DNA of 64,000 bases from Holtermannia corniformis. Lineage: Eukaryota; Basidiomycota; Tremellomycetes; Holtermanniales. The notes below the pieces were generated by a model, which had not been told where the DNA came from, ran no database searches, and saw only the letters and a program-made list of their open reading frames with translations. Below, one piece after another: positions 51,213-59,203 of this stretch (position 1 is its first letter; each line of letters opens with the position of its first letter). Where the stretch lies: positions 176,226 to 240,225 of the forward strand of contig BCIJ01000009.1 of the NCBI GenBank assembly GCA_001599935.1. The letters are read 5' to 3'. The position numbers were made by a program, and so were the translations under genes.

Positions 51213-54200
51213 ATGAGTTACGACAAGAAGGAAAAGACTAGTGACGAGGTGCAAACGGTCACGTCCGTCACCCCCTACAACCTTGAGCACGGTCACGCAC
51301 ACGGGGACCTTCATGAACTAGTTCGTGCACCCATTCAGTCCAATTCGCCCTGAGCTGATATCTGCTAAAGACCCAAGATGGCGCCCTAGCGGACCCCAAT
51401 TTGCCCGATGAACTGGTCGAGAAGGCGATTCACGACACTTCCACTGGCGTTGACTGCGTCGAGGTGTAAGTCCCGCCGCGCTTAGGTTAATTGTCGAGTT
51501 AACAGCTCGCCAGAGATTTCGAGGATGACTCCCCGTATCCCGAAGTGCGTGCGGCGGTGTCCAACCTGGATGACCCGGACATGCCTGTCAACACCTTCCG
51601 CGCCTGGTTTCTCGGTACGCGCCGTGAATGGACCAAAGCTCGCTAGCTGACGTTGTTAAAGGCATGGTCTTCGCCATCCTGCTTGCTGGTGTCAACCAGT
51701 TCTTCTTCTTCCGGTTGGTATTCTCTGCTTTCGGCTGGCTCTATACTAACTTACACAAGATACCCCTCGGTCACCGTACCGGGTCTCGTCGCGCAATTGC
51801 TAGCGTTCCCTGCCGGCAAGTTGATGGAATGGATCATTCCCCGCAGCAAGTTCTGGAACCCAGGTCCTTTCAACATCAAGGAGCATACTCTGATCACCAT
51901 CATGGCGGGCGTTGCTTATCAGGTGCGTTCGCGCCCGCCTCTGCTATAGAGGAGTTGACCTTGGCTCAGAGTGCCTACGCTACCGATATCATTGCTGTAC
52001 GTCCACCATGATCAAGCGCAACTGGAGCTGATATCGCGCTTAGGTCCAGCGCGTCTTCTACAACCAAATTTGGGGCTTCGGCTACCAAATCATGCTAGTC
52101 GTGTCCACCCAGATGATTGGCTTCGCCTTTGCGGGCTTCTCCAGGCGCTTCCGTGAGTAGCTCTTGTCTGTGCAGACTCCCGACAGCTGATTGCTTATGA
52201 CAGTGGTGTGGCCTTCGGCGGCTATCTGGCCCGCGAACTTGGCGACCACCAGTATGCTCAATGTCCTGCACCAGAACGACGTCGCTCAGGTAGAGGAGGG
52301 CCACATGAGTACCCAGCGGTTCTTCACCTATGCTACGGGTGGAATGTTTGCATGGTCGTTCATCCCGAACTACTTCATGTCGTGCTTGGCCTACGTAAGT
52401 CAGAGTGTGGCAGCCGGGAACGCTCAGCACGCTGATGTCTCGCAGTTTGGTACGCGTCAACCTCTTTCTCTCTGCCTTCAAAGTCTGCTCGGTGGCTGAA
52501 ACTGCCTCATCAGATTTTGTGACGTGGATATGGCCACAATCACAAGTCGTAAACACGGTCTTCGGGTATCAGCAAGGTGCAGGGCTGTCCCTACTCACCT
52601 TCGACTGGGGGATCGTGACCGCCATCGGTACCTCTCCGTTGACCACACCGTGGTGGGCTACAGTATGTAACGAGTCAACTAATTTTTACTTGAGCTAACA
52701 GTTGATGTAGGCCAATGTGCTCGGCGGTACACTCTTTTTCGTGCCGTTCCTCTCGGTTCTGCTCTACTACTTCACCGAAAGCTACAGCTTCGGCTATCTG
52801 CCGTTCTCGTCATCCACTTCGTTTGATCGATTCGGGAAGAAGTGAGTCTCATTTACTCAGGAAAATGAATACTCACCACTACGGTAGGTATAACGTGACG
52901 CGCATCTTGAATGAGGACAATACCTTCAATGAGGCAGCATACAAGGAATACTCGCCGCTGTAAGCTTGCACGGTGTCTTGCTGGCATGGACTGATGAGTG
53001 GAGGTACCTATCCGCGACTTTCGCCCTGACCTGTACGTGTTTGCACACTGTGCGATCTTGAACGCAAGCGCTGATCTTGTACAGATGGCTTGTCGTTTGC
53101 CGCCCTGATGAGCGCCATCGTCCACGTCATCCTCTACTACCGCAAGCAGATTTGGCAGCAGGCGCGCAGCTCCTACACCGACTCGGATGACGTGCACCGT
53201 CGTCTGATGAAGGTTTATCGCGAAGTCCCACTCTGGTGGTATGCCGCTCTGTTCCTCGTCAACTTCGCGCTAGGCCTTGCTGCCATTCGAGCCTGGCCTA
53301 CACAGTTGCCTGTCTGGGCGTACATCTTGAGCATCATCATGGGTGCCTTCTTTTTGCTGCCATGCGGTATCATTCAAGCAATCACCAATCAACAAATCGG
53401 CTTGAATGTCATCGTACGTGTCGTTGCTACCATGCTGGAGGCATGAACTGACTTTCTAGACTGAGATGGTCATCGGTTGGGCAAATCCTGGCAAGCCCGT
53501 GGCGATGATGATCTTCAAGACCTACGGCTACATCAGCATGTACCAGGCGCTTGTGTTTGTTGCCGATCAGAAGGTTCGTGCACTGTGCTCCTTTACAAAC
53601 GCAAGCTGACTCTGTTGCACAGGTTGCTCACTACATGAGTAGGTTTACTCAAAATCATACTTCGTTTGTTGAAACCTTTTGTCAGAGATTCCTCCCCGTA
53701 CCGTCTTCTGGGCGCAGTGCTCGGCTGCGTTCGTTGCTTGTTTCGTCCAGATCGGTGTTCAGGATTGGCTGTTCTCAAACATCGCAAACATGTGCGATCA
53801 CTCCATGACGCAAACATGGTGGTGCCCGAGTACTCAAGTGTGAGTTAGACGTTGTACACTATACATCAAGGCTGACGAGTCATTAGGGTGAGTTTCCCGC
53901 GATCTGTCTTCAATGCCAAACTAACGCACTGTCCTCTTTCTCTCTATCATACTCAGTGTGAGTCTGATACTTCTATAAGTAGCACAGTTCGCTGATGACT
54001 GGCCAGTCGGTACCGCTAGTGTCATCTATGGTGTAATCTCGCCCTCCCGGACCTTCTCACCGGGTGCTATGTACTCGCCGCTGTGAGTGTTGTGTGCTAC
54101 TCGGTGATCGGAGTTGACCGTGCACCAGTATGTGGTTCTGGCTTGTCGGCGCGGCCGCCCCGGTGCCCTTCTACTTCCTTGCCAGGAGGTACCCCAAGTC

Positions 54201-54713
54201 ATTGTGGCGATATGTCAGCTGGCCCGTCATTTTCTCGGCAGTTTCTCTCATGCCACCCTACCTGCCTATCAACTTCATCTCTTACTGCGTAGGTTCCCAG
54301 CGTTCCGATGCCGTGCCCGCTAACCTGCGCCCAGTATGTTGGCTTCATCTTCATGTACATTATCCGCCGCAAGGCGCCCGGATGGTGGCGTCGCTACAAC
54401 TTCGTTCTGTCGTACGTTCGCTTCACGCACATATGATGATAGTCGCTGACCGTACGTTGCAGTGCTGCGTGGAGCACCGGCTATGCACTAGCAATCATTG
54501 TCATTTTCTTCGCACTGCAGTATCCCAAAGAGTGCGCCTCAGGCCCATCATCAACATTTGCTGACGAACGGTAGCGGCACAATCGGCGAGTCTTGGATTG
54601 GCTGGGGTGGCAACAACATCTACAACGAGGTTTTGGACGCACAAGGTATCGGCAACGCTCGGTACCAATTGGCGGAAGGGGAGGCGTTTGGATTAAAGCC
54701 TGGCACCTGGTAA
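51213..54713 (+). CDS. OPT-family oligopeptide transporter with 24 exons including microexons
   Basis: This is a plasma-membrane proton-coupled transporter of small peptides (tetra/pentapeptide or glutathione type). The ATG at 51213 gives a polar N-terminus, then about 14-16 hydrophobic helices. Family motifs: [80 protein letters not shown]-type segment [79 protein letters not shown], ending FGLKPGTW (TAA 54711-54713). The gene needs 23 introns; exons include TTTG (52446-52449), a 16-nt exon (VAHYM), a 27-nt exon, and two successive one-base exons at 53887 and 53957. About 770 residues. Substrate not determinable. Confidence 0.93.
52446..52449 (+). other. 4-nt microexon (TTTG) of the OPT transporter
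   Basis: It lies between an intron with donor GTAAGT, branch GCTGAT, acceptor TCTCGCAG and one with donor GTACGC, acceptor CTCATCAG. It encodes Phe plus one base of Asp in [16 protein letters not shown], matching the expected Tyr-Phe junction of OPT proteins. Skipping it shifts the frame. Confidence 0.85.
53887..53887 (+). other. 1-nt exon (G) of the OPT transporter
   Basis: The upstream intron 53840-53886 (47 nt) has donor GTGAGT, branch GCTGAC and acceptor CATTAG; the next intron starts GTGAGT at 53888. The single G completes the Val codon (GT|G) in [13 protein letters not shown]. Confidence 0.8.
53957..53957 (+). other. 1-nt exon (T) of the OPT transporter
   Basis: The upstream intron 53888-53956 (69 nt) has donor GTGAGT, branch ACTAAC and acceptor ACTCAG; the downstream intron 53958-54006 (49 nt) has donor GTGAGT, branch GCTGAT and acceptor GGCCAG. 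The single T starts the Phe codon (T|TC). Confidence 0.8.
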
Positions 54714-55233: not shown

Positions 55234-58200
55234 TTATAGCCATAAGAATCTCTTGAGTGCGTAATCCACCCTCGAAGCAATGGATGTCGACTTTTGTGCT
55301 TCGGTCAAGCTGGGTGACAGTCAGCAAGTACTCTCTACAACAAGTGATACCGCTCACCCCACCACATCTGCGTTGACGACAAACGCGGCGTCGTCGTCGA
55401 AGCCAAGCTTGGCCCGCTGGTCTTGAATTTGCTTCACGATGCGATCGACGACCTCCCGACATGTTTCGCCTACACGACCTTCCACTTCGCCGTCGATGGA
55501 GTCTCCATCATCGCCATCCGCCCCGTGATTGACAAATTCGCGCGGCAACGCCTTAAGTGCGAAGAAGTCGATGTCTTCGCTTCGTTCAGTGGCGGCTTCA
55601 TTGGCAGGCTGGCGATTGCGTATCGAGTACGAGCTGTACCTTTCACCGTCTTCGGAGGCTTTGAATGACAAGAGCAAGCCAGCGTTCTGTAGCTGGGTCA
55701 GTCGCGCTGCACAGATTCCCGCATATTCGCACCTCTTCTGGATCCCGACCTGCTTCTTGCAGGGGTGACAGAATATACGCGCCTGACGTGCATGAGCGAG
55801 TGTACAGGCCGTGTAATAAACGAACCCTTCTGAATCTTCGTAATCGAGCCAAGAGGTATCCGCGTGAAGCCGATCACCTTTTCCAACGAGTAGTTAAAAG
55901 AGATGATGTACAGTGCTTGCCGTGTCTGCAGCAGCGTCAGCGCAACATGCCTGACGAACGACGGAGACTGACTAGGATCACGATCTTTTCTTCCAATTTC
56001 GTGCCAATCTTGACATTGCGTTCCTCCGGCGATAGCATCGTCCATCCATGCTGCCGCTGCTCGCCAGCGCTGAGAACACGAGATGTGCATATGTCGACTT
56101 TAAGATGTCAATTCAGACAGTGCAACTCGAAAAGTACTCACTGGCTGCAGAGCGTACTCGCGACAACTTGATGAGGCTCGACGCTTCGGAACTCTGCAGA
56201 TTTTCAAGGAACTCGCTGAAGACACTTAGGTTGCGGTGACCAAGCAAGAAGGATATGACCGCCTGTGAGAAGAAGTCGGAAACAGCGCCAGAGTACATTC
56301 GTGCCAGTGAATTCAGGCCATCATGCCACTAGACGTGTCAGAAACAAATTTCTTCTTCTTAACAGACCCACCATGCCAGTTAGATCACGCTTGCCTGTTC
56401 TGGTGAAATCGCCTTTCAGAGCAGACGTTCCAGCATAAGCTTGTGATACGGCATCACCATTGTTGGCCCAAACTACGCAAATCCGTCAGTGAAACCAAGT
56501 CTTACTGTGACTGCTGCCACTAACCATCATTGAAGACCGTTTCGACGTTGGTCAGCGATTCCGGAACCAGGCCCATTTGAGTGAGCATGTTTGATAGCAC
56601 ATATCGCGCAAAGGCAGATTGAACGACGTTCGTGCGATCAAGGCAGTCAATGCAACTAAGCCTGGTAAGCTTACTGTGCCAGACCACCAACGACAGACCC
56701 ACTTGGTTCGGAATGCCCCATGTTGTTCCCGCATGACTTCATCCTGACACGCCCAGTAGTAGCCTTGCTCCGCAAAGACTGCTTCGAGGTTGTTGACAAG
56801 CTTGCCAATATTTTCGTACTGAGGTTGCTCAATGACATCGGCATTGATTGTTGCGCAGCACCACTGACCTTCATGCCCTTGCACTCATTATGAAAGTCAA
56901 ATTCTTGATAGCTGCACGAAGTATCAGCCAGATCCCATCCTAGCCTCGCGGATCTCACGCAACGTCCGGTCGATCAAGCAATCGCACCAGCTCCTTGTAA
57001 CCGTTTGTCACTTCAGCCTCCCTGCCCGTCGCCTCTGACAAGTTGACAATCGTCTGAAGTACCGTCATTCATGGTGACAGATCGTGCGCTAGTGACTTAC
57101 TTGCTTGCCGTATCGCGCGGTCAAATCGTCGAAATGCATCTTTGCCGTGGTAACCGTGTCCTCAACAGGCTTGTCAAGTGCTGGAATGGGCTTGAGAGCG
57201 TAGGGTGATTGTGACCAGCGTAGAGGTATTGACCCTCGTACTTGCACGAAGCTGAAAAGTGACGGTTTGCCCTCGATCTGTTTATAACAGTCAGCGAGAG
57301 CACTGAGGACGCAAACTACTCACTGTAGCGCGCACGATCATCTCCGTTTCTACCATGTTCGCAACATGACCAAGATCATCGATGCCTCTTCGCTGGTATC
57401 GCAGTCCCGCTCGGTCTTTGCTTCGTCGCGAAATCACCACAAGGTCCACTGGAATACTGCTCGAGGGCTTTGTCGAACCGACCGTACTAGTGGGAGCGGG
57501 TATAGTGAAAGTGGAAGATTGGAACCAGCCCTGCGTAACGGGTAAAATGTACGCGTGCAAGCCCAGCTCGATGAAGTCCTTTGCAAGCCACTCGTTCCAG
57601 AAGAAGCGACGATCAACGCGGCGCCACAGCGGTACGTGCACATCAGGCTCGACAAAGTCATCCCCCTGGATCGTCTTCGACTGCACTTTCGGTTCCTGTG
57701 CGCGCTCTTCAAACGACTCGCCCAGACCAAGCCGGGTGTCTCCAAGATCGGCCTCGTTTACAGGCGACGTCGGGAATGTCCCTTCCTGGGATGCGTTCTT
57801 GGTAAGCAAGTTTGCAAGTAACGTCCCAGATGTCGATCTTGCATGCAGGATTTTGCGCTTATACTGCAGAGAGTGGGTGAGGTCGAAGTCGAAGCTGTAA
57901 AAGAAGCCGCCTGAGCTCAGCTCGCGGATGAGCTCGCGTAAGATTTTAGATTCGAGTTCTCGACGTTGCGGAGGATTTGATGCAAATGGCACTGATTCGG
58001 TTGAAGTGCGGGCGGATGAGGTGGTGGCATCAGATGCAACGGTCTCAGTTGCCGTGGGAACGTCTGTCGATGATTTGTCCGTTCCATCCACTGTTGACAC
58101 TTCCTCGGATGGTGCTACCTGATTGACCCCCGCTGCAGTGTTGCCCGCACGCTTTGGTATCTTCGGGATGAACATTCCCCATCCAATGTTGAACTTCTTT

Positions 58201-59203
58201 TTGCCCTTCTCGTCTGCTTTTCCGGAGTCAAGATCGAGGATGTCTAACGGTGACTCGTCGGCTTCCGGTGATAACGACGGCGAGCCACCACCACCGCGAA
58301 CGATTGCGTCTTCCTCAGCTTCTATCGATGTGGTGTCATCGCCCTCTGCTTCCGTGTCGGTCTCGCCTTCGGTCTCGCTCGCAGGTTCGGTAGCGGGTTT
58401 AGCTGGTGTCTTGGCACCCAGCCCAGGCAGTGGGATTGACCATCGTACATTCAGCGCACGATTCGCCAGGGCCGGCAGAGAGTTTGCGTCATTATCGTCT
58501 TTTGGCTTCGGATGAAGCTTGGCCTGCCTAACTTCAGTCATTGAGTCACAAGCCTCGAGAATACTGACATGTAATGCCATCAGAGCCTTTAGCGTCTTCT
58601 CGGCCAAGTCAGGGGTTAAGGGGATTGGGTGAATATCAGCCAAGGTGTAGACCTCGTGTGTTGAGGCTCGGCTGTCCGGGAAGCTGAGGGAGTCTGTGGA
58701 TGCCGAGGTAGGAAGGGTCGATGAAGTGGTGGCATGTGCCGAGAAGATTGGTGTGGGCGGGGATCTTGGTGGGAGGAACGCGAGGAGATATGAAGCTGCC
58801 CGGAGGGTCAGTAAGAGTCGTACAGCCGTACCGCAGGACGATGTCTGAACCAAAGCAGGTGTAACATGACTTTCGAGCAGACCCACTCACCATCCCATAG
58901 CCGCACCAAGCCAAGGATACCCCCTAACTCGACCTCGAGTTGATCCTCTGTCTCCTCCTCACCAAGGCCCGTCCCGTCCCACTGCTCGACCCGTCCTTTT
59001 GCACCCCATCGTATCAGCACACCTCTACCAGGCAGTTGCGGGACCGAAATATTGCCCTCCGCCTGCGGGGCAACTGGCCTAAGCAGCAAGCCATGCGGAA
59101 CGATGTTGAGGCGGAGCTTGCGATGGGGGTGCGATGGGAAAGGAGGGACCTGCATGCTTCTCGGTAGACCACCAGACGGCGAAGAGTGTGCTGAAGAGGG
59201 CAT
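55234..59203 (-). CDS. Sac-domain phosphoinositide phosphatase (Sac2/INPP5F-like)
   Basis: Predicted to remove a phosphate from phosphoinositides (Sac2/INPP5F is a PI4P phosphatase of endosomes). The ATG at 59203 begins MPSSAHSSPSGGLPRSMQVP. The Sac domain is interrupted by a long acidic/Ser insert of about 200 residues, then SSGGFFYSFDFDLTHSLQYK, WNEWLAKDFIELGLHAYILP, and RYQRRGIDDLGHVANMVETE. Further on come SFVQVRGSIPLRWSQSPYAL, YQEFDFHNECKGMKYENIGK, and the catalytic NCIDCLDRTNVVQSAFARYV (Cys-x5-Arg). The tail has FSEFLENLQSSEASSLIKLS, SLEKVIGFTRIPLGSITKIQ and LLLSFKASEDGERYSSYSI, which fits the hSac2 (PH-like) domain, and no 5-phosphatase domain. The stop is at 55236-55234. About 1,000 residues. 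Confidence 0.9.

Follow-up and report, generated by a model that had tools for sequence, protein, structure and literature searches.

The OPT transporter gene and its intron cluster

The 64,000-nucleotide stretch analyzed here (the window) belongs to a 20.2-Mb assembly of 55 contigs from the basidiomycete Holtermannia corniformis, and carries on its forward strand, at positions 51213..54713, the coding part of an OPT oligopeptide transporter gene. The gene model, for a protein of 790 amino acids, comprises 24 exons separated by 23 introns, and its exon chain is open to the stop codon. In a domain profile search the product matched PF03169 over its full length (617 bits, profile positions 2-622 of 623), and its best named match in a protein search came from Naganishia adeliensis (60%). 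Minus-strand reading frames that adjoin the gene at approximately 56500-58900 encode what we take, from translations judged by eye, to be a Sac-type phosphoinositide phosphatase. The OPT gene itself contains a four-base exon, TTTG, at window positions 52446-52449, which encodes Phe285 plus the first base of Asp286; Phe285 is present in all 121 aligned sequences. A sixteen-base exon at 53623-53638 lies just upstream of the intron cluster that is the subject of this study.

The cluster begins after exon 17 (53686..53839, 154 nt), which ends in ACT CAA GT. Intron 17 (53840..53886, 47 nt, phase 2) reads GTGAGT...CTGAC...ATTAG, with its branch motif at 53873-53877; intron 18 (53888..53956, 69 nt, phase 0) reads GTGAGT...CTAAC...CTCAG, with its branch motif at 53922-53926 and a pyrimidine-rich tract between this motif and the acceptor; and intron 19 (53958..54006, 49 nt, phase 1) reads GTGAGT...CTGAT...GCCAG, with its branch motif at 53993-53997. 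Exon 20 (54007..54082, 76 nt) starts with TC GGT ACC GCT AGT. The only letters left between the three introns are G 53887 (exon 18) and T 53957 (exon 19), such that the exact sequence is ...ACTCAAGT, then the introns separated by G and T, then TCGGT. A complete acceptor lies upstream, and a complete donor downstream, of each of these two single bases, and the introns occupy three successive inter-nucleotide positions, GT^G^T^TC, in phases 2, 0, and 1. The initial annotation had reported these letters, donors, branch motifs, acceptors, and coordinates exactly.

Introns 17 and 19 are typical for the gene, and intron 18 is atypical. The branch-like motifs begin 14, 35, and 14 nt before the ends of introns 17, 18, and 19, respectively; in the other OPT-gene introns the motif lies 11-18 nt from the acceptor in 17 of 20 and is absent in three. 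At 69 nt, intron 18 is also longer than the other introns seen. The 41 other introns of the OPT gene and of the GH3 gene described below have a median length of 47 nt and reach only 64 nt, so that a single intron of 117-167 nt at the cluster would be out of range. A GTGAGT donor is present in all three cluster introns and in 3 of the other 20 in this gene, a pattern that fits a requirement for strong donors beside exons that themselves offer nothing. The same hexamer is absent from the spliced coding sequence of the gene, and at intron 18 it stands exactly one base past an acceptor. One of the 20 other introns has a donor of the GTGT type (GTGTAA).

Neither the genome nor the other two cluster introns yielded similar copies of any of the three. 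Tandem duplication and an introner origin were rejected on the grounds that the cluster introns are no more alike than the gene's other introns (pairwise similarity z of -1.0, 1.6, and 1.7, against a background mean of 0.8 and sd of 1.2 among the latter). A genome search with 501 bases around the cluster, in which simple repeats and very common words were skipped, matched only the cluster itself. Predicted RNA structure over the cluster was unexceptional (z 0.32, with 123 of 200 shuffles folding at least as well).

Reading frame, conservation, and alternative splicings

Retention of both bases gives CAA-GTG-TTC-GGT (Q-V-F-G) and the protein sequence CPSTQ-VF-GTAS, in which G 53887 is the third base of the Val617 codon and T 53957 the first base of the Phe618 codon. 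Removal of the whole span as one 167-nt intron gives ...QVRYR*, with a stop at the fifth codon after CAA, as the initial annotation had noted, and this candidate was rejected accordingly. Skipping one base while keeping the GTGAGT donors loses the frame. Each of the two bases is required for the frame and for a conserved protein segment. The pattern C[PA]x3[VT]FxxAS is present without a gap in 120 of 120 homologs listed, which bears out the earlier claim that both bases together preserve the conserved OPT spacing. All 121 aligned sequences, the query among them, have Phe at residue 618; at residue 617, 114 have Val and the other 7 have Thr. Because Phe618 is invariant, the identity of T 53957 is fixed. 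For G 53887 it is the presence of the base that is constrained and not its identity, since it occupies a wobble position at which any base codes for Val.

A paralogue on contig C29 is intronless at the site and reads CASTKVFTTS, and a paralogue on contig C11 is likewise contiguous there. The OPT model did not match an OPT-like locus on contig C6 at a threshold of E 1e-3. The open exons of the C29 paralogue (L027, C29:23500-28500) are much longer than those of the 24-exon window gene.

Alternative splicings of the cluster were enumerated in two ways. Among 2,621 flat GT-AG splice chains with introns of at least 35 nt, 255 were open in frame, and the triple-intron model had the best protein-profile score (149.6 bits, as compared to 135.6 for the next) and, among the 25 chains listed, the best splice-site score (44.1). 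The second enumeration allowed sequential and nested removal, with up to three removals of GT-AG introns of 35-170 nt, and produced 1,285 products; the triple-intron product was again the best, also when the length limit was lifted. Among the routes listed, the only ones that led to the conserved product consisted of the three flat introns, taken in each of the six possible orders, and nested routes led to lower-scoring products only. The initial annotation had suggested that splicing might be stwintron-like, with donor-like junctions at G and T. The enumeration did not support this suggestion: no route of up to three removals among those listed, in which one intron interrupts the donor, branch, or acceptor motif of another, yielded the conserved product, and no obligatory order of removal emerged.

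The simplest gene model at the locus is an ordinary 71-nt exon, in which introns 17 and 19 are real, both of normal size, and 53888-53956 is either coding or an exitron-like intron that is usually kept. This model dispenses with one-base exons and predicts a 23-residue insert between Val617 and Phe618. It draws on the atypical length and branch spacing of intron 18, and on the fact that the 69-nt stretch is divisible by 3 and lacks an in-frame stop. An exitron is a coding stretch that is optionally spliced, and the stretch has the open frame and the multiple of three expected of one, but its content is not coding-like. With a codon table trained on the same OPT gene (whose coding sequence, in this test, extended one codon beyond the stop), 53888-53956 scored -10.4 bits in a coding-versus-intron comparison, whereas 69-nt segments of the coding sequence of that gene averaged +9.7 bits (sd 5.9), with 0.13% as low, and open intron pieces averaged -6.2 bits. 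The stretch, in other words, scores as an intron. The 71-nt-exon product also has a lower protein-profile score (116.6 as compared to 149.6 bits), and an insert at this site was found in 0 of 120 homologs listed. A structure predicted for homolog P0002 (mean pLDDT 74.3, pTM 0.79; mean pLDDT 76 for residues 591-600) places the Val-Phe pair within a putative helix, 591-606; a search by sequence from P0002 for a solved structure of an OPT relative returned none. The position of GTGAGT one base after the acceptor argues in the same direction. We consider the 71-nt exon improbable as the main form of the transcript. Low-level or regulated retention of intron 18 may nonetheless occur: of nine modelled splicing errors, it alone keeps the frame, and it would give an isoform with 23 additional residues, whereas the other eight lead to a premature stop.

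A model with just one single-nucleotide exon makes use of a weaker donor at 53838 (GTGTGA), together with either one 119-nt intron or a split-donor stwintron. Depending on whether T or G is kept, its product is CPSTQ-F-GTAS or CPSTQ-V-GTAS, one residue short. The initial annotation had stated that keeping a single base shifts the frame; this is correct for the GTGAGT donors, to which the statement was confined, whereas with the donor at 53838 the frame is preserved and it is V or F that is lost. The two products keep an open frame and score 135.2 and 135.1 bits, nested routes to both exist, and the single GTGTAA donor elsewhere in the gene provides a precedent for the donor type. Against this, the model depends on either an intron of 119 nt or an external donor of poor quality, its splice-site scores are 25.1 and 25.7 as compared to 44.1, and it drops either Val617 or the invariant Phe618, positions that are both occupied in 120 of 120 homologs listed. 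We regard it as less probable again than the 71-nt exon. Least probable of all is an assembly error or a decaying gene, that is, a wrong base or a gene that lacks a proper transcript. The cluster is known from one assembly, but three complete introns could not be created by a single wrong base, the other exons are open and conserved across the 790-codon gene, and the same architecture recurs in the unrelated GH3 gene.

Motif frequency and a putative one-base exon in a GH3 gene

With 5 matches in the window, as compared to a shuffle mean of 3.05, the bare motif AGNGTGAGT shows no enrichment; 20 of 100 shuffles reached 5. A relaxed form of the complete one-base-exon signature has two matches in the window, both at the OPT cluster; in 60 first-order Markov resamples of the window the same signature had a mean of 0.35 matches and a maximum of 3. 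Across the 20.2-Mb genome, the tandem pattern AGNGTGAGT-N{35,65}-AGNGTGAGT occurs three times, twice at the OPT cluster, and its backwards control occurs twice. The weight of the case thus rests on frame and protein conservation and not on motif counts.

The third genome-wide match to the tandem pattern falls within a gene for a GH3 beta-glucosidase, on contig C3, and constitutes a second, independent model of a single-nucleotide exon in the same genome. The putative exon is an A at C3:98775 on the minus strand (L030, C3:95000-101000), which would complete the ATG for Met in VPAVR-M-SDGPNG; the next two exons measure 9 and 27 nt. The gene model was built by hand and has 22 exons, 21 introns of 38-51 nt, and 904 residues; the acceptor of intron 14 has two possible places, between which length was used to choose. 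Intron 17 of this gene needs a GC donor (GCAAGT) for frame. The best named match of the gene is from Phaffia rhodozyma (57%). In an alignment of 62 sequences, consisting of the query and 61 of the 120 matches listed, Met is the majority residue at the site (39 of 62, with Leu in 9, Thr in 7, Phe in 5, and Val in 2), the preceding Arg is present in 59 of 62, and the following Ser in 62 of 62. The five alignments to solved GH3 structures that were shown are ungapped over the motif. The one-base-exon product scored best of 49 enumerated, 10 of which were open in frame (128.6 as compared to 117.6). Because the case was found with a pattern that demands GTGAGT, its donors are uninformative on donor strength. 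A scan of seven out of 30 loci turned up no one-base signature beyond the known GH3 one, and 20 kb of additional sequence yielded none.

Proposed mechanism and relation to known short exons

The locus is best read as an intact, ordinary OPT transporter gene that probably contains three abutting U2-type introns and two successive one-base exons, spliced stepwise by intron definition. We assign this reading a probability of roughly 0.86, and the two consecutive single-nucleotide exons proposed in the initial annotation proved to be the best model of those tested, in agreement with 120 of 120 homologs listed and with the intronless paralogue. The most likely mechanism is the removal of three ordinary introns one after another. 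Each cluster intron has its own donor, branch motif, and acceptor, and would be recognizable by intron definition, in which splice sites are paired across a short intron and the exon contributes nothing. With splice sites one base apart, three spliceosomes could presumably not fit side by side for reasons of size, and because such assembly would be excluded, removal would have to be stepwise. The introns could go one by one in any order, as every order leaves the remaining signals intact, and G and T would be ligated in to give the Val-Phe junction. The distant branch point of intron 18 may provide room for stepwise assembly. A candidate helper is Prp40: in yeast it bridges the donor and the branch site, and in C. 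elegans microexons depend on its homolog, which is proposed to span the introns around them, according to the available text of PMC8378409.

Two one-base exons in a row amount to an extreme test of splice-site pairing across introns. Nothing can assemble over a one-base exon, and thus the order and fidelity of the three reactions would have to come from the introns alone. If the model is correct, the cluster represents the smallest possible exon chain and offers a compact natural system in which to observe sequential splicing; it would also caution that such genes will escape gene predictors and read aligners.

Single one-base exons are already known, those of plant APC11 and VPS55 being established and that of Fusarium CYP621A reported. 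The precedents are more numerous than the APC11 example cited in the initial annotation, which omitted VPS55 (PMC8831610) and CYP621A (PMC12940212). For two coding one-base exons in a row, no report was found in the available parts of the open-licence literature searched, consistent with the earlier view that such a pair is undescribed. Arabidopsis APC11 resembles the OPT case in that a one-base coding exon, constitutive in APC11, is needed for frame, and its authors likewise argue for intron definition with removal of one intron after another (PMC4674806). Its putative branch point lies 44 nt upstream of the one-base exon, comparable with the 35 nt of OPT intron 18. In contrast to the OPT pair with its introns of 47-69 nt, APC11 has one such base only, within an intronic sequence assigned as 422 nt, and its exon was demonstrated by cDNA and reporter constructs (PMC4674806), whereas the OPT exons are predicted from DNA. 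Plant VPS55 shares with the OPT gene a one-base microexon with strong GTRAGT donors, and adjacent microexons of 5 and 12 nt in rice Os08t0562700 neighbor each other as in the OPT cluster; the introns that flank plant microexons are thought to be removed consecutively (PMC8831610). The plant cases differ in their introns and in their RT-PCR evidence, and two one-base exons in a row were not found among them in the text available from that source (PMC8831610).

A fungal parallel is the one-base exon (AG-G-GT) of CYP621A, which was deduced from the reading frame, the conservation of the protein, and a relative that lacks introns, and then supported by transcript reads; it is conserved among 20 orthologs (PMC12940212). 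It consists of one base in an ascomycete, whereas two in a row are predicted for the OPT gene, in a basidiomycete, from genomic sequence. Stwintrons and the four-reaction complex intervening sequence of rtnA are groups of fungal U2 introns removed in consecutive reactions (PMC6616335), as is proposed for the OPT cluster. They differ in that one intron splits a signal of another, so that some order is obligatory (PMC6616335), whereas the OPT introns are each complete.

A broader reading, which we offer tentatively, is that this lineage may have no lower limit on exon length. Dense intron gain would have shrunk exons repeatedly to one base, twice in a row in the OPT gene and once in the GH3 gene, with a spliceosome that handles such chains by pure intron definition; the middle OPT intron might then double as an in-frame switch that adds 23 residues when kept. 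The available text of PMC5103461 makes no mention of one-base exons in Cystofilobasidiales such as Phaffia rhodozyma, and reports an average of 7.65 introns per gene for that group, among the highest in fungi. That a second case occurs in this genome suggests that a systematic search of the lineage is feasible.
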